A stretch of 64,000 nt of DNA from Methylomonas montana (lineage in GTDB: Bacteria; Pseudomonadota; Gammaproteobacteria; Methylococcales; Methylomonadaceae): positions 2,666,001 through 2,730,000 of the forward strand of contig NZ_CP129884.1 in NCBI RefSeq assembly GCF_030490285.1. Direction: 5' to 3'. The notes under the pieces were generated by a model. It was not told where the DNA came from. It searched no databases and saw only the letters and a list, made by a program, of their open reading frames with translations. Numbering within the stretch: position 1 is the first letter of the stretch; each line of letters opens with the position of its first letter. Below are positions 16,168-24,720 of the stretch, piece by piece. Made by a program: the position numbers and the translations under genes.

Positions 16168-17133
16168 TTAATGCGGTTTAAGTTGGCGAAGCTGATAATG
16201 CAATACCGCCCAAGAGCCCAGCACGGCTAGCAACGAAGAAATCATCAGCAACAGGATGAATTCCGAAAAACTTAGGAACAGCAGTTCAAAAGAACTGCTA
16301 TATAAGGTCGACAATTTTTCCACCGGCGATTCCAGGATCAACAACATGATGGTGACGATCAGCCAGCCCAGGAAACCGGCAATAAATCCCAACCAAAAAC
16401 CGGTGTATAAAAAAGGCCGTTGAATAAACGAGTGGGTGGCACCGACCAGTTTGGAAATAAACACTTCGTCCTGACGGTTTTGTAGTTCCAGACGGATAGT
16501 ATTGCCGGTAATAAAGGTCACCGCAAAACCCAGCAACAGACTGACCAAGGTCACCCCGCGACTGGCGATCAACATGATGGTTTGCAGCCTGGCCACCCAT
16601 TGCATATCGACCTGCACGAAATCGACTTGCGGCAACTGTTTGAAATCGGCCATCAATTTCTCGATGTCTTCGTTGTTTTCCAGCGCGTTTTTCGGCATCA
16701 CCTGAATCACGCTTGGCAATGGATTGCGTTCCAGCGCGTTTAACGCATCGCTGAAACCGCTATTGGCCTTGAACTCCTCCAGCGCCTGCTTTTTAGTGAT
16801 GAATTTAACCGCGGCGACACTGGGATTTTGTTGTAGCTGCTCGGCCATTTTTTGGCCGGCGGCATCGGTGATATTGTCATGCAGAAACAGCGACATCTGA
16901 TTGCTGGACTCCAGATTGCCGGTCATTTGCTGGATATTGGCGACCACGATATAAAAACTGCTGGCCAGCGCGATGGCGATCGCCAATACCAGCACCGTCA
17001 TCGACGAGGTAAACGGCGCACGGTTCAAGCGCCCCAGACTAGAGAACAGGCCGTGGGCATGGTTTAACAAATAAGCCTGGAATAGCTCCAGCAATCGATT
17101 TTCGGAATGTTGACTACGACGCATCTGTCTCAT
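16168..17133 (-). CDS. ftsX: Cell division protein FtsX
   Basis: A 321-residue ABC-transporter-like permease. One transmembrane helix lies at about 45-65, then a periplasmic domain (about 70-185), and three helices in the C-terminal half (about 190-320). The segment LNRAPFTSSMTVLVLAIAIAL before the first helix is typical of FtsX. With FtsE it forms an inner-membrane complex that controls murein hydrolysis (EnvC/amidases) during division. ftsE ends two bases upstream of its start, the usual coupled order. Confidence 0.95.
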   Translation of the reverse strand: MRQMRRSQHSENRLLELFQAYLLNHAHGLFSSLGRLNRAPFTSSMTVLVLAIAIALASSFYIVVANIQQMTGNLESSNQMSLFLHDNITDAAGQKMAEQLQQNPSVAAVKFITKKQALEEFKANSGFSDALNALERNPLPSVIQVMPKNALENNEDIEKLMADFKQLPQVDFVQVDMQWVARLQTIMLIASRGVTLVSLLLGFAVTFITGNTIRLELQNRQDEVFISKLVGATHSFIQRPFLYTGFWLGFIAGFLGWLIVTIMLLILESPVEKLSTLYSSSFELLFLSFSEFILLLMISSLLAVLGSWAVLHYQLRQLKPH

Positions 17134-17135
17134 GG

Positions 17136-17792
17136 TCAGCTCGCTATCATATGGCCCTTGTCGAGCGTCAACACCCGATGGCCTAGATGAGTCACCAATT
17201 CCAAGTCGTGCGTGGCGATCAGTACCGTCACGCCCACTTGTTTGAATTGTTCGAACATATACATCACTTCGGCGGACAGCTCGGGATCCAAGTTACCGGT
17301 CGGCTCATCGGCCAGAATTAGCTTGGGTTTGTTGACGATAGCCCGAGCAATGCCAACCCGCTGCTGCTCGCCGCCGGACAGCGCTAACGGATGTTTGCGT
17401 TCCTTACCCAGCAGGCCGACCTTGTCCAGCGATGCTCGCACCCGCCGCGCCACTTCCTGAGGATGGTATCCGGACACCACCAAAGGCAGAGCCACGTTAT
17501 CGAACACCGTTCTATCGTGCAGCAATTTGTAATCCTGAAAGATCAAACCCAGGTTGCGACGCACATAAGGGATCTTGCGTTCGCTGATGCGGCTGATATC
17601 TTGACCATCGAAGGTCACCGTGCCGCGTGTACACTGCTCCATCATCGCGATCAGCTTCAACAAAGTACTCTTGCCGGCCCCGGAACGGCCGGTTAAAAAC
17701 GCTATTTCGCCGCGTTGCAAATGAAAGCTGACATCGGTCAAGGCTTCACCGGCATCCGGATAGCGTTTGCTTACATGTTCAAATTTCAGCAT
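17136..17792 (-). CDS. ftsE: Cell division ATP-binding protein FtsE
   Basis: A 218-residue ABC ATPase of normal FtsE length. It has Walker [10 protein letters not shown] near residues 35-43, Q-loop FQDYKLL, signature LSGGEQQR, Walker [13 protein letters not shown] and the H-loop ATHD. It drives FtsX in septal peptidoglycan remodelling. It lies 17 bases after the CtaA-FtsY fusion gene and two bases before ftsX, keeping the conserved ftsY-ftsE-ftsX order. Confidence 0.96.
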
Positions 17793-17809: not shown

Positions 17810-19777
17810 TCAGTCTCTTACAAATAAAGCATCGACAAAATTCCGGGCATTGAAATCCTGCAAATCATCTATCTGCTCGCCGACACCGATAAACCGAATC
17901 GGAATCCGCAGCTGATTAGCCAATGCGAAAATAATACCGCCCTTGGCAGTGCCATCCAATTTAGTCAGCGCGATGCCGGTCAATTCGACTGCCTCGTTGA
18001 ACAGTTTAGCCTGCGACAAGGCATTCTGGCCGGTACCGGCATCCAGAATCAACAACACTTCGTGCGGCGCAGACTCATCCAATTTAGTCATGATACGTTT
18101 GATTTTTTTCAACTCGTCCATCAAATTGGATTTGGTATGCAATCGGCCGGCGGTATCGGCGATCAACACATCGACGCCCTTGGCCTTGGCGGATTGCAGA
18201 GCATCGAAAATCACCGATGCGGAATCGGCACCAGTATGCTGAGCCACCACTTGAATGTCGTTACGCTCGCCCCAGGTTTGCAACTGCTCGACCGCCGCAG
18301 CCCTGAAGGTATCGCCGGCCGCCAACATCACGCTATGCCCTTGCTGTTGCAGGCGCTTGGCCAGCTTGCCGATCGAGGTGGTCTTGCCGGCACCGTTGAC
18401 GCCCACCACCAGAATCACGAACGGCCCATCCTGTTGCGGAATATGCAGCGGCAAGCTGCACGGTTCCAGCATGGCCAATAAATTCTGTTTCAAGGTCTGG
18501 CTCAGTACTTCGCCGTCGCTGAGTTGATCGCGCTCCAAACTGTCGGTCAGCTGCTTGATCAATTGCGTGGTGGTTTCGATCCCCATATCAGCCATCAGCA
18601 ATTGGGCTTCGAGATCAGCCAGCAACTCCTTGGTAACGGCTTTTTGTCCGAACGCCAAACCGCCCAGCACCGCACCCAAACCGCTACGGGTCTTTTTCAG
18701 TTGATGGCTTAACCGCAGATATAAAGAAGCTTGGCTGACAGGTTCCGCTTCGATGGCGGGACCGATCTCGCCGACCAAGACCTCGGCTTCGACAGTGATG
18801 GCTTCTTCTGCCTCGTCGCCAGCGCGGTAGCGGCTATAAAACACAATCGCCAGCAAGGGCAGCATCAACAAGGCGGCAAACAGGTTATGGGCAATCGCCA
18901 ATGCCAAGGGCAGTTCATATTTGACGCTGAAAATACCCAGTGCGATCTGCACCAGCAATAACAGGCTTAACATGTTGCCGGCAAAACGCACCGGTTTCGG
19001 ATAGCGCTCGGAAGTTGCCGACAACATCAATGCGCTTAACACGATGAAGACGAATCCAGCGAATACCCGATGCAGGGCTTGTATCGCCATTTTCGCATCG
19101 GCCGACAAACCGCTATCCCTGAATAAATCCAGTGCGCTTAAATAATCGGCATCCGGCAACCAAGTGCCGTTACAACGCGGGAAATCAGTGCAAGCCAAAC
19201 CTGCGTAATTGCTGCTGACCCAGCCGCCCAGGATAATTTGCATCAGCAACACCAGCATCCCAAACCCGGCGAACAGGCTAGGCCCGGATTTCACCGGCCT
19301 TGGCGAAACCGTCGGATTCAGCCGCCAATAACTCCATGCGATGATCCAAAACGTCACGAACCCCAATAATAAGTGAGCGCTCACCACGCCCGGCCGAGTG
19401 CCGGAGGACACCGCCCACATGCCTAGACCGGCTTGCGAGACGATCAACAGCAAGGTCAAGGATGTCAGCGTCACCGCCTGCGAACGCCGGCTTTGCCGCC
19501 AAGCCAGGCCGAACCAAACCAACACCAACACTGCCAGGCCGCCGGCCAGATAACGGTGGGTCATCTCCTTCCAGGCTTTTACGGTATCCAGCGCATATGT
19601 CGGAAACTCAGCGGCCGCATCGGCTTTGAATTCGGCACTGTCGCTGACCAAGGCTTTACCGTAGCAACCCGGCCAATCCGGGCAGCCCAAACCGGCGTGA
19701 GTCAATCTGACGTATGCGCCGACCACGATAACAAGCAGCGCCAATATTGCGCAGCACAAGGTTAATTTTCTGAACAT
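17810..19777 (-). CDS. ctaA-ftsY: Fusion of heme A synthase (CtaA/COX15) and SRP receptor FtsY
   Basis: One uninterrupted frame of 655 residues. Residues 1-318 are a full-length eight-helix heme A synthase with four heme-ligand histidines: His74 (THRY), His135 (SAHLLLG), His236 (LHRVFAG) and His297 (AHNLF). Residues 319-347 are an acidic linker like the FtsY A domain. Residues 348-655 are the FtsY NG GTPase, with GVNGAGKTT (459-467), GDTFRAAAVEQL, DTAGR (541-545) and TKLDG (605-609). CtaA makes heme A for the oxidase encoded upstream; FtsY docks ribosome-SRP complexes at the membrane. I see no good internal ATG to make FtsY alone. The gene links the cytochrome oxidase cluster directly to ftsE-ftsX, and no ctaB lies between. 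A deletion that joined the two operons is the simplest origin; a sequencing artefact is possible. Confidence 0.9.
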   Translation of the reverse strand: MFRKLTLCCAILALLVIVVGAYVRLTHAGLGCPDWPGCYGKALVSDSAEFKADAAAEFPTYALDTVKAWKEMTHRYLAGGLAVLVLVWFGLAWRQSRRSQAVTLTSLTLLLIVSQAGLGMWAVSSGTRPGVVSAHLLLGFVTFWIIAWSYWRLNPTVSPRPVKSGPSLFAGFGMLVLLMQIILGGWVSSNYAGLACTDFPRCNGTWLPDADYLSALDLFRDSGLSADAKMAIQALHRVFAGFVFIVLSALMLSATSERYPKPVRFAGNMLSLLLLVQIALGIFSVKYELPLALAIAHNLFAALLMLPLLAIVFYSRYRAGDEAEEAITVEAEVLVGEIGPAIEAEPVSQASLYLRLSHQLKKTRSGLGAVLGGLAFGQKAVTKELLADLEAQLLMADMGIETTTQLIKQLTDSLERDQLSDGEVLSQTLKQNLLAMLEPCSLPLHIPQQDGPFVILVVGVNGAGKTTSIGKLAKRLQQQGHSVMLAAGDTFRAAAVEQLQTWGERNDIQVVAQHTGADSASVIFDALQSAKAKGVDVLIADTAGRLHTKSNLMDELKKIKRIMTKLDESAPHEVLLILDAGTGQNALSQAKLFNEAVELTGIALTKLDGTAKGGIIFALANQLRIPIRFIGVGEQIDDLQDFNARNFVDALFVRD

Positions 19778-19781
19778 GTTT

Positions 19782-20369
19782 CTAACCGATTTGTGAAATT
19801 CTGAGTAACTTGCTTAAGTCATTTCTGACTTTATAAGGATCGTAGCCTGGCTGGTATTTCATCATCAGATTCCCCAATGGATCCATGATGAACAGCATGC
19901 CTTCCGGCAGTGGCTGTGGGCCAAGCTTGTTTAATTTTTCTTGCAACGAACTTGCCGGCAAGGCTTTCAATAATCGGCCGTCGTCTCGCCATTCGGCCGG
20001 CAATTGTAGGGCTTGATCGAATACTATGGCCAGGCGCCGGATCCGGGCAATATCCTTACCCATCATCAGCGTCAGTTGATTGGTTTTATACAAGGCATCC
20101 CGGCAGATCTCCGAACATTCCTTCGATACCGAATTGACCAGCACCCAATGGCCTTTCAATTCCTGCATGTTCTGCGCGGAGAAGGCATCGTAGCCGGAAA
20201 ACTCGTTGGCTTCGGTGACTTGCGGCGGCATAATCAGCTCGCCGTTATTGGTGCCCAGCCTAACTATGTCCGGATTTTCCGCCAAATACCAGGCAATGCC
20301 AAACGGCACGATAGACATGGCAAACACCACCAAAATGGTGATGCGATTTTTCTTATATTGTTTTTCCAC
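19782..20369 (-). CDS. SCO-like cytochrome oxidase assembly protein
   Basis: A 195-residue membrane-anchored protein with one N-terminal helix (about 10-28) and a thioredoxin-like periplasmic domain. The metal or redox pair is a CxxxC, KECSEIC, near residues 82-88, as in SCO proteins; the distal copper-binding histidine of classical SCO1 is not obvious. It probably helps deliver copper or reduce the Cu-A cysteines of subunit II. Its start overlaps the 3' end of the SURF1 gene by 17 bases and its stop is four bases before ctaA, all typical of oxidase operons. Confidence 0.8.
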   Translation of the reverse strand: MEKQYKKNRITILVVFAMSIVPFGIAWYLAENPDIVRLGTNNGELIMPPQVTEANEFSGYDAFSAQNMQELKGHWVLVNSVSKECSEICRDALYKTNQLTLMMGKDIARIRRLAIVFDQALQLPAEWRDDGRLLKALPASSLQEKLNKLGPQPLPEGMLFIMDPLGNLMMKYQPGYDPYKVRNDLSKLLRISQIG

Positions 20370-21105
20370 GGTGTTGTTTTCGACTACTGTTCCAAATAAA
20401 CAGGGCTGTGAGGGTCAGCGCCAATCCGAACCATTGTACTGCATAGGCCCGATGTTTTTCAGGCGGGATTGCGACGGCAATCTTCCATTGGCGTTGGTAA
20501 CCCTCAGCCTGCGCGGGATCCAGCTCGATTTGAAAATCGGCTAACGTATAACCCAACTTGGCCGCCAGCAGTTTGCTATCGACGACTTGCACCCGCACCG
20601 GCCAGGTCTCGCCGGGGATTTCCGCACCCTTCAAACGGATGCCCGGCTCCGGAAAATGATTGATCCGACCGAGAACTTGTTGAATCGGCGCGTTTATAGT
20701 TATGTCTGGCAATGCTTCGCGCGAGGTGCCCAAAGCAACCCAACCCCGGTTGACCAATACCGCCGGCTGACCGCTGTCGGGCAAGAACGGCGTTAACACC
20801 AGATAACCCGGCTTGCCGTCCAAGATCTGATTGTCTATCAAAACCTGATGTACACCGTCGTAATGGCCGTTCAACAGCGCCGGCCGATAACGCAATAACT
20901 CTTTGTCGATCTCGGTTTGCTGGTTCAAATCCAAGGCTTCAGCGGTCGCCGCGGCTTGCTGCCTCTCCAGTAAGGCCCTTTTCTGATCGCCCCGGCCTAG
21001 TTGCCAGAGACCCAAGCTACACAATAAGGCCAATAACAGCAGATAAGCGGCGAACGCTAACAGCGAACAACGAAACTCGAGCCCCCAAATGTTAAATTTA
21101 ATCAT
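20353..21105 (-). CDS. SURF1 family cytochrome oxidase assembly protein
   Basis: A 250-residue SURF1/Shy1 homologue. It has a helix at about 8-29, a periplasmic domain with LGRGDQKRALLERQ, VLIDNQILDGKPGYLVLTP and VNRGWV, and a second helix at about 224-242 with HRAYAVQWF, the family end signature. It assists heme a insertion into subunit I. I chose ATG 21105 (MIKFNIWG), which follows AGGAG; an upstream ATG at 21132 would overlap the divergent small gene. It is part of the oxidase operon. Confidence 0.9.
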   Translation of the reverse strand: MIKFNIWGLEFRCSLLAFAAYLLLLALLCSLGLWQLGRGDQKRALLERQQAAATAEALDLNQQTEIDKELLRYRPALLNGHYDGVHQVLIDNQILDGKPGYLVLTPFLPDSGQPAVLVNRGWVALGTSREALPDITINAPIQQVLGRINHFPEPGIRLKGAEIPGETWPVRVQVVDSKLLAAKLGYTLADFQIELDPAQAEGYQRQWKIAVAIPPEKHRAYAVQWFGLALTLTALFIWNSSRKQHRGKTI

Positions 21106-21165
21106 TAAGTCATTACTCCTGGTATGGGACACGCACTATTGGCAAGCGCAACCGAATCGTTGAGA

Positions 21166-21514: not shown

Positions 21515-22390
21515 TTACAGCAGGTAAACGAACACGAACAGACCCAACCAGACCACGTCGACGAAATGCCAATACCAGGCAGCCGCTTCAAACGCGAAAT
21601 GGTTTTCCGGAGTGAAATGGCCTTTCCAGCTTCTGAACAACACCACGGAAAGAATAATTGCACCGACGCAAACGTGGAAACCGTGAAAACCGGTCAGCAT
21701 GAAGAAGGTTGAACCGTAAATGCCTGAACCCAGTGTCAGACCCATTTCATGGTAGGCTTCGTAATACTCGGTCGCTTGGAAAGCCACGAACAAAAAGCCC
21801 AGACCGACGGTTGCCAGCAAACCTTTGATCAATTGGTCGCGATTTTTCGCCAACAAGCCATGATGCGCCCAAGTGCAAGTCACGCCGCTAGACAACAGTA
21901 ACAAGGTGTTGATGAAAGGCAGACCAAATGCGCCCATCGGTTCAAAATCACCGCCCACTTTGCCGGGACCGTTGGTAGGCCAAATCGCTTGAAACGCCGG
22001 CCATAATACATCGTGCGTGGAACGACCCGGACCACTGGACATGCCACCTTCACCCAGATGCGGAATCGAGATATTACGCGCATACCAAAGCGCGCCGAAG
22101 AATACCGCGAAGAACATGACTTCGGAAAAAATGAACCACATCATGCCCATGCGATAGGAAATGCCGACGCCATGGCTATACATACCGGATTCGCTTTCCG
22201 TGGATTGCAACGCAAACCAGGCGCCCAACATCAGGATAAAAGCGATAAAACCGGTCAGCATCATGCCGGAACCGATCGGAGAACCATTCAAATGATTGGC
22301 AAAACCCGCCAGCATGAGCATTAAGCCGGCAGTGGCCAGCACCGGCCAGACCGCCTTATGCGGGATGTAATAAGCTGCGTTTGTGGACAT
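21515..22390 (-). CDS. ctaE: Cytochrome c oxidase subunit III
   Basis: A 291-residue inner-membrane protein with seven predicted helices. The family signatures MGMMWFIFSEVMFFAVFFGALWYAR-type helix, HGFHVCVG and HFVDVVWLGLFVFVYLL C-terminus are all visible. It stabilises the oxygen-reducing core of the aa3-type oxidase. It lies 14 bases after the Cox11 gene. Confidence 0.96.
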   Translation of the reverse strand: MSTNAAYYIPHKAVWPVLATAGLMLMLAGFANHLNGSPIGSGMMLTGFIAFILMLGAWFALQSTESESGMYSHGVGISYRMGMMWFIFSEVMFFAVFFGALWYARNISIPHLGEGGMSSGPGRSTHDVLWPAFQAIWPTNGPGKVGGDFEPMGAFGLPFINTLLLLSSGVTCTWAHHGLLAKNRDQLIKGLLATVGLGFLFVAFQATEYYEAYHEMGLTLGSGIYGSTFFMLTGFHGFHVCVGAIILSVVLFRSWKGHFTPENHFAFEAAAWYWHFVDVVWLGLFVFVYLL

Positions 22391-22404: not shown

Positions 22405-22947
22405 TTAATTTTCAACGATGTTAGTTCTATCAAAAAAAGTGTATGACAATGTAATGGTTTTATAACGTTCGGGCAGTTTCGGATTAACCACAAACCGCAC
22501 CGGCATGGTCTTTTCTTCCTTGGGCTCGAACGTTTGAGTCGTAAAACAAAAACATTGCGTTTTTTTAAAAAATTCCTCGGCGAGCCCCGGCGCAATGCTC
22601 GGTATAGCCTGGGCTTTTATCTTATTGTCGGTATTGTTCTTGGCATAAAAATTAACCGTGTAATACTGACCAGGGTGAACCTTTAAGCTGCGGGTTTCGG
22701 CGCGGAAAGTCATCGGCGTCGATTCGTTAAGAGACGTAATAAATTCTACGGTGATTTCTCTTGTCTGATCGACGACAAATTCGGTCGTTTCCGCGGCAGC
22801 CCCTTCAATCTTTCTATTCTGACCGGTGAGATCGCACAACACATCGTAAAGCGGTACCAGAGCATAGCCAAAGCCAAACATCAGAATGGCCAACAAAACC
22901 AATCTTTTGACCAGTTTGACATTCTTCCGCTGGAGATCCTCGCTCAT
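22405..22947 (-). CDS. ctaG: Cytochrome c oxidase assembly protein CtaG/Cox11
   Basis: A 180-residue copper chaperone for the Cu-B site of subunit I. One helix lies at about 14-32 (FGYALVPLYDVLCDLTG), followed by an immunoglobulin-like periplasmic domain. The copper motif CFCF lies in KKTQCFCFTTQTFEPKE. Its ATG overlaps the stop of a 32-residue membrane peptide gene as ATGA, so the two are translationally coupled. Confidence 0.95.
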   Translation of the reverse strand: MSEDLQRKNVKLVKRLVLLAILMFGFGYALVPLYDVLCDLTGQNRKIEGAAAETTEFVVDQTREITVEFITSLNESTPMTFRAETRSLKVHPGQYYTVNFYAKNNTDNKIKAQAIPSIAPGLAEEFFKKTQCFCFTTQTFEPKEEKTMPVRFVVNPKLPERYKTITLSYTFFDRTNIVEN

Positions 22948-23106: not shown

Positions 23107-24720
23107 TTAGAAATGCTCGGTCGGCACAATTTCAGGCGGGGTGGTGAAAGTGTGATAAGGCGCCGGCGATGGCAAGGTCCATTCCAGACCATGTTTTCTG
23201 GCATCTTCCCATACCTCGCCAGTCGCTTTACCAACGCCGCCCTTGATGGTATCGATCACGATGTACACGAACAGCAATTGGCTGAAACCGTAGATGAACG
23301 CACCGATACTGGACACCATGTTCCAATCAGCAAACTGAATCGCGTAATCGGGGATACGACGCGGCATGCCTGCTAGCCCTAAGAAATGCTGCGGGAAGAA
23401 CAAAATGTTGACCGAAACCGCCGACAACCAGAAATGCAGTCTGCCGATTTTTTCGTTGTACATATTGCCGGTCCATTTAGGTAACCAGTAATAACCGGCC
23501 GCCATCAGGATGAACACCGACGCAGGCACCAAGGTGTAATGGAAGTGAGCCACGATGAAATAAGTGTCGTGATACTGGAAGTCAACCGGCGCAACCGACA
23601 TCATCAAACCGGTAAAACCACCCATGGTAAACAACACCACGAAGGCAATCGAAAACAGCATCGGTGTTTCGAAAGTCATCGAGCCTTTCCACATAGTGGC
23701 AGTCCAGTTGAACACTTTCACGCCGGTCGGAATCGCGATCAGCATGGTGGCGTACATGAAGTACAACTCGCCGGCAATCGGCAAGCCCACGGTAAACATG
23801 TGGTGAGCCCAAACGATGAACGACAGGAACGCAATCGCGCCGGTCGCATACACCATGGAGGCATAACCGAACAAAGGCTTACGGGCAAACACAGGAATAA
23901 TCGTGGAAGCCACGCCGAAAGTCGGCAGAATCATCACGTACACTTCAGGGTGACCGAAAAACCAGAAAATGTGTTGATACAACACCGGATCGCCGCCGCC
24001 AGCCGCATCGAAGAAGCTGGTTTCGAAGAAACGGTCGGTCAGCAACATGGTGACCGCACCGGCGAATACCGGCATGATCGCAATCAACAAGAACGCAGTG
24101 ATCAACCAAGTCCAGACGAACAACGGCATTTTCATCAGCGTCATCGCAGGCGCGCGCATATTGAAAATGGTGGCGATGATGTTGATCGCGCCCATGATGG
24201 ATGAAACACCCAACAAATGCACCGAGAAAACCGCAAACGGAAAAGCTTTACCGGTTTGCAACACCAACGGCGGATATAAGGTCCAGCCGGAAGCAGGCGC
24301 TCCGCCTTCCATGAATAAGGTACTGGCCAGCAATAATACGCCGGCAACCAGCATCCAGAAGCTCATGTTGTTCATCCGCGGCAAAGCCATGTCCGGCGCG
24401 CCGATCATCATCGGAATCATCCAGTTGGCCAGGCCGACGAAAGCCGGCATCACCGCGCCGAATACCATCACCAAGGCATGCATGGTGGTCATCGAGTTGA
24501 AGAAGTTAGGGTCGACAAATTGCAGACCCGGTTCGAACAACTCGGAACGGATGATAAGCGCCATGGTACCGCCGACGAAGAACATCACCAGCGCAAACAG
24601 CAAATACAAGGTACCAATATCTTTATGGTTGGTGGTAATAATCCACCTCAAAAGCCCCTTAGCGGGACCGTGATCGTGGTGATCGTGATGATCATCATGT
24701 TCGGCTACGACAGCAGTCAT
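23107..24720 (-). CDS. ctaD: Cytochrome c oxidase subunit I
   Basis: A 537-residue heme-copper oxidase core subunit with 12 predicted helices. The Cu-B/Tyr crosslink region reads WFFGHPEVYVMILP, and HDTYFIVAHFHY carries the heme a and a3 ligands. The N-terminus has a histidine-rich stretch (HDDHHDHHDHG) that could bind metal. The D-channel and K-channel helices fit an A-family enzyme. It works with subunits II and III to reduce oxygen with electrons from cytochrome c. Confidence 0.97.
   Translation of the reverse strand: MTAVVAEHDDHHDHHDHGPAKGLLRWIITTNHKDIGTLYLLFALVMFFVGGTMALIIRSELFEPGLQFVDPNFFNSMTTMHALVMVFGAVMPAFVGLANWMIPMMIGAPDMALPRMNNMSFWMLVAGVLLLASTLFMEGGAPASGWTLYPPLVLQTGKAFPFAVFSVHLLGVSSIMGAINIIATIFNMRAPAMTLMKMPLFVWTWLITAFLLIAIMPVFAGAVTMLLTDRFFETSFFDAAGGGDPVLYQHIFWFFGHPEVYVMILPTFGVASTIIPVFARKPLFGYASMVYATGAIAFLSFIVWAHHMFTVGLPIAGELYFMYATMLIAIPTGVKVFNWTATMWKGSMTFETPMLFSIAFVVLFTMGGFTGLMMSVAPVDFQYHDTYFIVAHFHYTLVPASVFILMAAGYYWLPKWTGNMYNEKIGRLHFWLSAVSVNILFFPQHFLGLAGMPRRIPDYAIQFADWNMVSSIGAFIYGFSQLLFVYIVIDTIKGGVGKATGEVWEDARKHGLEWTLPSPAPYHTFTTPPEIVPTEHF

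Follow-up and report, generated by a model that had tools for sequence, protein, structure and literature searches.

A single gene in the window (the whole 64,000-nucleotide stretch of Methylomonas montana DNA analysed here) encodes heme A synthase (CtaA) joined to the signal recognition particle (SRP) receptor FtsY, and the explanation that we consider probable is a permanently membrane-anchored SRP receptor with a b-heme domain kept by selection, born by an inversion and since decayed in its catalytic half. The SRP receptor is universal and the mode of its membrane contact is an active question; here, in several families, evolution would have made that contact permanent. The sequence-only reading of this DNA knew of no described CtaA-FtsY protein, and we also found no published description of such a fusion in the open-licence PMC literature; the available excerpts of the synthase papers PMC8239418, PMC9145763 and PMC12808453 do not mention FtsY, and PMC3568101, likewise an excerpt, uses FtsY as a tree marker.

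That reading had described one frame in which a complete eight-helix CtaA, with all four heme-ligand histidines, is joined through an acidic linker to a complete FtsY NG GTPase, and the description is borne out in each of its parts. The gene (Table 1) is a single ATG frame without an internal stop, and its start codon is supported by M1 and R3, conserved at 90% or more across 60 aligned relatives. A Pfam scan places COX15-CtaA (PF02628) at residues 4–306 of the 655-aa protein (E 8.4e-71; 239.1 bits against a cut-off of 29.9), SRP54_N at residues 376–433 and the SRP54 GTPase at residues 452–652 (E 2.6e-77). The FtsY part scores 369.2 bits with TIGR00064, above the cut-off of 260.7, and residues 353–655 match E. 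coli FtsY (2qy9) by phmmer. The CtaA part holds the complete motif set (C32/C38, E71xxH74R, H135, C196/C202, H236, H297), which includes the catalytic Glu, the four His and the N-terminal Cys pair, and the linker has 9 acidic residues and 1 basic residue among the 28 measured. In the AlphaFold model, eight TM-length CtaA helices (pLDDT mostly above 85 over residues 1–320) are followed by a linker with pLDDT below 50 and then by the FtsY NG fold, which is also the fold that the model's matches return. The pTM of the model is 0.53, and therefore the placement of CtaA and NG relative to each other is undefined.

Table 1. Positions in the window of the fusion gene, its parts and its neighbours; the names ftsE, ftsX, surf1-like, coxC, ctaG/cox11 and coxA are presumptive, given from recall.
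Feature	Position	Strand	Basis or remark
ctaA-ftsY fusion gene, 655 aa	17810..19777	(-)	single ORF, Pfam
CtaA domain, residues 1-318, eight TM-length helices in model	18824..19777	(-)	PF02628, pLDDT, motifs
N half of CtaA domain	within 18824..19777	(-)	carries C32, C38, E71, H74, H135
C half of CtaA domain, residues 165-318	18824..19285	(-)	retained C196, C202, H236, H297
acidic linker, residues 319-351	18725..18823	(-)	in place of unfused FtsY's alphaA1-like motif
FtsY NG domain and alphaN1 helix, residues 352-655	17810..18724	(-)	phmmer, TIGR00064
ftsE	17136..17792	(-)	17 bases downstream of fusion
ftsX	16168..17133	(-)	downstream of ftsE
195-aa protein	19782..20369	(-)	no Pfam match; 4 bases upstream of fusion
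surf1-like	20353..21132	(-)	
coxC	21515-22390	(-)	
ctaG/cox11	22405-22947	(-)	
coxA	23107-24720	(-)	

An assembly error is very unlikely as the source of the fusion, because the genome is one contig (4.63 Mb, rated 100% complete) and because the long frame recurs among relatives: FtsY above cut-off was found in 143 of 151 family genomes, and its frame is at least 558 aa in 141 of those 143 (counted by eye). This is also the outcome of the search for the CtaA and FtsY pair in related methanotroph genomes that had been suggested as a check. The exceptions are G041, whose contig ends 22 bases away from the FtsY match, and G045, a 75%-complete MAG with an in-frame TGA. In the latter (L181/L007) the TGA falls within the last CtaA helix and separates the CtaA and FtsY frames.

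A frameshift or misassembly at the junction, a separate ftsY and a conserved restart of translation, each raised earlier as something that would undo the fusion, were looked for and not found. The one TIGR00064 match above cut-off in the genome is the fused gene, and the three SRP54-type matches are the fusion, a frame of 457 aa at C1:3651871 and one of 477 aa at C1:580002, the latter two of which we infer to be Ffh-like and FlhF-like, respectively. By these two kinds of match the single-contig genome has no second FtsY, so of the second copies that the sequence-only reading had thought worth looking for only ctaA exists, standing alone at C1:3037403-3038296 (L175:5371-6345), with no oxidase genes among its neighbours by inspection. 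No conserved internal start was found in the linker of 106 relatives; in counts that still include L114, a row with an assembly gap, 9/106 have a linker ATG, 1/106 an ATG accompanied by a Shine-Dalgarno match of 4 bases, and 16/106 a start codon of any kind so accompanied. Release of free FtsY from an internal start was rejected on this lack of a conserved start codon; a protease could free FtsY after translation. That the gene is an assembly or frameshift artefact, or dead, is vanishingly improbable. In favour of it there are, among the loci read, just two that appear broken, G045 by an in-frame stop and G033 by an assembly gap; the one-contig genome, the sole FtsY and the 141 family genomes contradict it.

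Long FtsY frames occur also in families f2 (3/3), f3 (2/2) and f5 (1/1) and, among the matches listed, in the members of f4 and f6 except the partial G207 and G222; full fused frames of these f2–f6 members measure 656–878 aa. The f7 genomes among the matches listed have unfused FtsY frames of 331–367 aa, and f8 has a 350-aa frame in G157 and a partial match only in G163. Named fused proteins include those of Methylomonas, Methylomarinum and Methylobacter among the best 120 listed, and one is also present in a Methylococcus record (L308). A plain “FtsY” annotation hides half of such a protein, and “fused signal recognition particle receptor” is, we take it, the general KEGG name of ftsY, unrelated to the CtaA fusion.

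Outside the order, no CtaA-fused FtsY was found among 129 above-cut-off FtsY in a class sample of 140 genomes, a verdict that rests on frame length and on the reading of three long frames. FtsY frames above 600 aa in this sample belong to G000 and G153, of the same order, and to G334, G336 and G259, which were rejected as fusions since their frames are merely open ahead of an ordinary FtsY start. A 793-aa CtaA frame in G393 was also rejected, its locus (L182) having no FtsY match; the FtsY of this genome sits elsewhere in a 402-aa frame. Among 80 CtaA relatives taken from at least 591 confirmed, five are fused to FtsY, namely the methanotroph records L266, L267, L268 and L308 and a gammaproteobacterial MAG (L269).

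The fusion appears to have arisen once, and this is well supported. In the FtsY NG tree, built from 42 fused rows, 6 unfused rows of f7/f8 and 15 others, the fused proteins form one clade (SH-aLRT 96), with f8 next (90) and then f7 (89); in the CtaA tree, where the outgroup is very distant, the fused domains are not one clade. The gene order of unfused relatives seems informative as to how the junction came about. At all four f7/f8 loci (L206-L209; gene names by inspection and similarity), coxA..coxC, surf1, the 195-aa gene, ctaA> and ctaB> face <rpoH<ftsX<ftsE<ftsY, one or two other genes separating ctaB from rpoH, and in at least 18 further genomes ctaA and ftsY lie on one contig within 25 kb, convergent by eye in 18/18. 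Turning round the stretch between ctaB and ftsY, both included, in a single inversion would give the gene order seen in f6, where ctaB stands reversed directly behind rpoH, downstream of the fusion, in 7/7 genomes read (of 10 listed), with ftsE and ftsX seen between the fusion and rpoH-ctaB in four of the seven. Since ctaB was not found in the other fused stretches fetched, this relic survives in f6 only, as far as seen. A deletion, which had been proposed earlier, is set aside on account of the gene order of the unfused loci and the f6 relic, and an inversion is well supported as the probable origin. In the ancestor of families f1–f6, inversion of the ctaB...rpoH-ftsX-ftsE-ftsY block would have set ftsY in frame behind the ctaA of the oxidase cluster, and from the relic, still visible, one can read how a gene fusion was born.

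The junction also changed the N-terminus of FtsY. Unfused relatives begin MFGFGKKK or similar (MFGF in 14/15, MLGF in the fifteenth), which we take as an alphaA1-like motif, whereas a motif of MFGF type is present in 0/106 fused linkers and the window's protein likewise has no alphaA1 motif; the idea that CtaA stands in place of FtsY's membrane-targeting part has held up in this respect. The alphaA1 membrane-targeting motif is typical of the FtsY N-terminus but not universal. Fused linkers are 18–56 aa long (median 30 aa) and net acidic in 97/106 proteins, and behind them R355, L356, Q359, L360, T363 and R364 are invariant in 60 aligned fused proteins, a region that by position and recall we take to be the alphaN1 helix at the A-N junction. 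Bibi in 2001 and Maeda in 2008 are said to have described a hydrophobic N-terminal segment in Streptomyces lividans FtsY, which like the fusion has its own more hydrophobic membrane part, but there the segment is short and without an enzyme or heme domain; Zelazny in 1997 reportedly fused FtsY-NG to an unrelated membrane protein. Compared with E. coli FtsY (A domain plus NG), the fusion has a similar NG domain (60–62% identical in the best E. coli matches) and keeps the alphaN1 region, but has CtaA TM helices and the linker in place of the alphaA1-like motif.

According to the available part of PMC5533587, E. coli FtsY first touches the membrane dynamically through alphaA1 and then, when triggered by SRP, a second time through alphaN1; an unrelated membrane segment can substitute for alphaA1, and FtsY-NG on a foreign TM segment sustains growth. 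The engineered FtsY-NG with a TM peptide described there has the same architecture in principle and is functional in E. coli; it is a laboratory construct, whereas the methanotroph fusion is kept across several families and comes with a heme domain. By analogy, the fusion is a natural version of this replacement. The CtaA part very likely anchors FtsY in the membrane; it would have taken over the role of alphaA1 as first membrane contact, and the alphaN1 helix and NG GTPase would have remained, so that SRP, we propose, still triggers the second, activating contact.

It is well supported that the CtaA domain has decayed on one side, as the alignment of 106 fused domains indicates. This set consists of 127 distinct FtsY frames and the window's protein (P0001) minus 15 unfused f7/f8 rows, L007 (G045, stop), L101 (G207, partial), L003 (identical to P0001), L089 and L098 (cut copies of L154 and L148), L143 (contig edge) and L114 (G033), whose apparent degeneracy is an assembly gap of N. 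N-half residues are kept in 86 (C32), 85 (C38), 48 (E71), 76 (H74) and 80 (H135) of the 106 domains, and C196, C202, H236 and H297 of the C half in 104 each. The full N-half (catalytic) set of five is present in 41/106, and part of the catalytic triad is lost in 64/106. The class in which the triad is kept is a lenient one: it includes L139, which has no N-terminal Cys pair, and L111 and L112, in which the Arg after H74 is missing. All four C-half residues, that is, the heme-b histidines and the second Cys pair, are complete in 103/106; the exceptions are L115 and L117 of genus g8 (G007, G057) and L141 of g25 (G025, a 76%-complete MAG). Like CtaA/Cox15 of type 1B (6a2j of B. subtilis, and 8aw5, which the PDB calls Heme O oxygenase and which is presumably from Aquifex), the window's protein has the Glu, four His and two Cys pairs, but it carries FtsY, and its relatives show the triad losses just given.

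With L114 included, conservation of the CtaA domain in the degenerate set is highest at four sites, H297, H236, C202 and C196, and identity is 24% in the N half and 40% in the C half of degenerate fused domains, as compared to 56% and 55% in intact ones. On the FtsY tree, under irreversible loss and without L114, triad losses number 25 on the topology as drawn and fall to 17, 7 and 4 once branches below 80, 90 and 95 are collapsed (26, 18, 8 and 5 with L114), whereas C-half losses number 2 as drawn and 2, 2 and 1 with the same collapsing. The fused proteins of 550–575 aa lack about 90 N-half residues and keep C111, C117, H157 and H217 in 94/94 (L114 included). The model of one such half-CtaA protein (mean pLDDT 73) has, by our own count, six TM-length helices before NG, an even number that fits a cytoplasmic FtsY, and its fold comparison lists SRP GTPases among the 50 rows shown.

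In the synthase itself the N half, which holds Glu57, is thought to bind heme O and the C half low-spin heme b, and for activity the N-terminal Cys pair is important and the C-terminal pair not required (PMC12808453, excerpt); the pair retained in the fusions is the reverse of the one important there. A lost residue is no proof of a dead enzyme, because some free synthases vary likewise at the catalytic Glu and His (E57N, E57K with H123N, H60N, H278D in the table available from PMC8239418). The C-terminal half, with its two heme-b histidines and Cys pair, would have stayed under selection, and in many lineages FtsY would be anchored not by an enzyme but by a membrane domain with b-heme. The retained C-half site likely binds heme in the living cell, and heme and protein targeting may have become linked; the one-sided decay supplies a natural protein series for testing heme's role in targeting.

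The genus g8 departs from this pattern. At three of its loci (L115-L117) BLAST found no match to the CtaA part, and the long N-terminal part of these proteins is considered a CtaA remnant because of its place and, for G034, because of a weak Pfam match. In L115 and L117 the C-half Cys pair and heme-b ligand positions are lost in the alignment, hydrophobic helices and the TM8 end are kept, and a CxxC pair of their own appears. Heme is not strictly needed, because G007, G057 and G025 keep a long FtsY without the C-half ligands.

A standalone CtaA is present in 65 of 68 fused genomes (partial in G020) and was not detected in the other three, G021, G047 and G154 (94% complete); it is likewise undetected in G069 and G087, and all five genomes, which fall in two lineages, keep the catalytic set in the fusion. 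G111 (85% complete), whose sole CtaA match is the fused frame, may be a sixth. The standalone protein serves as a control: in 43/43 distinct frames the Glu, the Cys pair and three His are kept, and Asn stands at the position of H60. Its motif, in L175:5371-6345 and 42 further distinct frames, reads EYxNR in place of ExxHR, and the four f7/f8 genomes examined, all unfused, showed no standalone EYxNR CtaA. Asn at the H60 position is known from Actinomycetota (PMC12808453), and H60N is listed in PMC8239418, both seen as excerpts. A third CtaA-like frame (L244, in G203) is 28% identical to the window's CtaA domain.

The standalone CtaA would have made the fused catalytic half dispensable, and this half would then have decayed several times. 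Many oxidase clusters of methanotrophs thus probably hold a ctaA that no longer works as a synthase. In lineages with the intact set, the equal conservation of both halves suggests that the fused synthase is still used, and the window's protein, its catalytic residues intact, is probably also a working heme A synthase. The earlier notion that the fusion ties the amount of FtsY to that of heme A synthase cannot be a general point, because the triad is partly lost in so many relatives and a separate CtaA is so common.

Several other readings of the retained domain need to be weighed against a selected b-heme anchor. It seems rather unlikely that the CtaA domain is a passive membrane tail whose C-half residues hold the fold beneath FtsY, although they might serve folding or a partner. 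The g8 proteins, with hydrophobic helices and no ligands, would suit such a tail, as would the indication in the available part of PMC5533587 that any membrane contact uncoupled from activation could suffice; but one TM helix would do, yet six to eight helices and the exact ligands are kept in 103/106, and N-half losses number 4 to 25 while the ligands stayed. Recounting these losses (25 to 4) left the odds of the readings unchanged.

A selected b-heme anchor may be extended into a heme- or redox-gated receptor, in which occupancy or redox state of the b-heme and of the Cys pair next to it would alter the membrane domain and adjust FtsY, membrane-protein insertion thereby keeping pace with heme supply or respiration. 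We find this doubtful: the linker is variable in length and modelled with low confidence, without sign of a rigid signal path, and the ligands are lost in g8, against which stand the retention of heme-b histidines and Cys pair (103/106 and 94/94) while catalytic residues go, and the surf1 and/or 195-aa gene upstream of the fusion in 70/74 loci (some cut by contig ends). Were CtaA of gammaproteobacterial methanotrophs indeed turned into a b-heme sensor that sets FtsY activity, an unlikely outcome in our estimate, it would couple the insertion of membrane proteins (methane monooxygenase, oxidases) to heme supply, oxygen or redox state.

The same upstream genes would also suit an oxidase-assembly hub, where the CtaA part would still meet CtaB, Surf1 or subunit I, and FtsY would bring the ribosomes that make oxidase subunits to where heme is inserted. 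A complex of CtaA with CtaB can form, and binding of CtaA to subunit I is a possibility (PMC9145763, excerpt); in the CtaA-CtaB fusions of PMC8239418 and PMC12808453 (both excerpts) heme A synthase is, as here, joined to another gene, though the partner there is the preceding pathway enzyme and here the targeting machinery. We nevertheless hold a hub to be quite improbable, since coxA lies within the fetched stretch in only 46/74 fused loci (some cut by contig ends) and is missing from it in several f4 genera, FtsY as the sole SRP receptor serves all clients, the catalytic half decays, and the vicinity may be inherited because ctaA and ftsY adjoin without fusion too.

Downstream of the fusion, ftsE and/or ftsX are found in 65 of the 74 loci of fused families, some of them cut by contig ends. 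Nine f4 loci (L150, L151, L152, L154, L156, L157, L158, L160 and L162) keep the fusion with no ftsEX found downstream. Between coxC and surf1 in the window there is a terminator-like hairpin at 21494-21467 (-) with 12 pairs and a T run, because of which a single transcript for the cox genes and the fusion is disfavoured; sites of this kind number 22, against 15.2 expected in shuffles. After ftsX the window has a CxxCxxCC protein (PF03692; 15733-16164, (-)), and many relatives have rpoH at that place.
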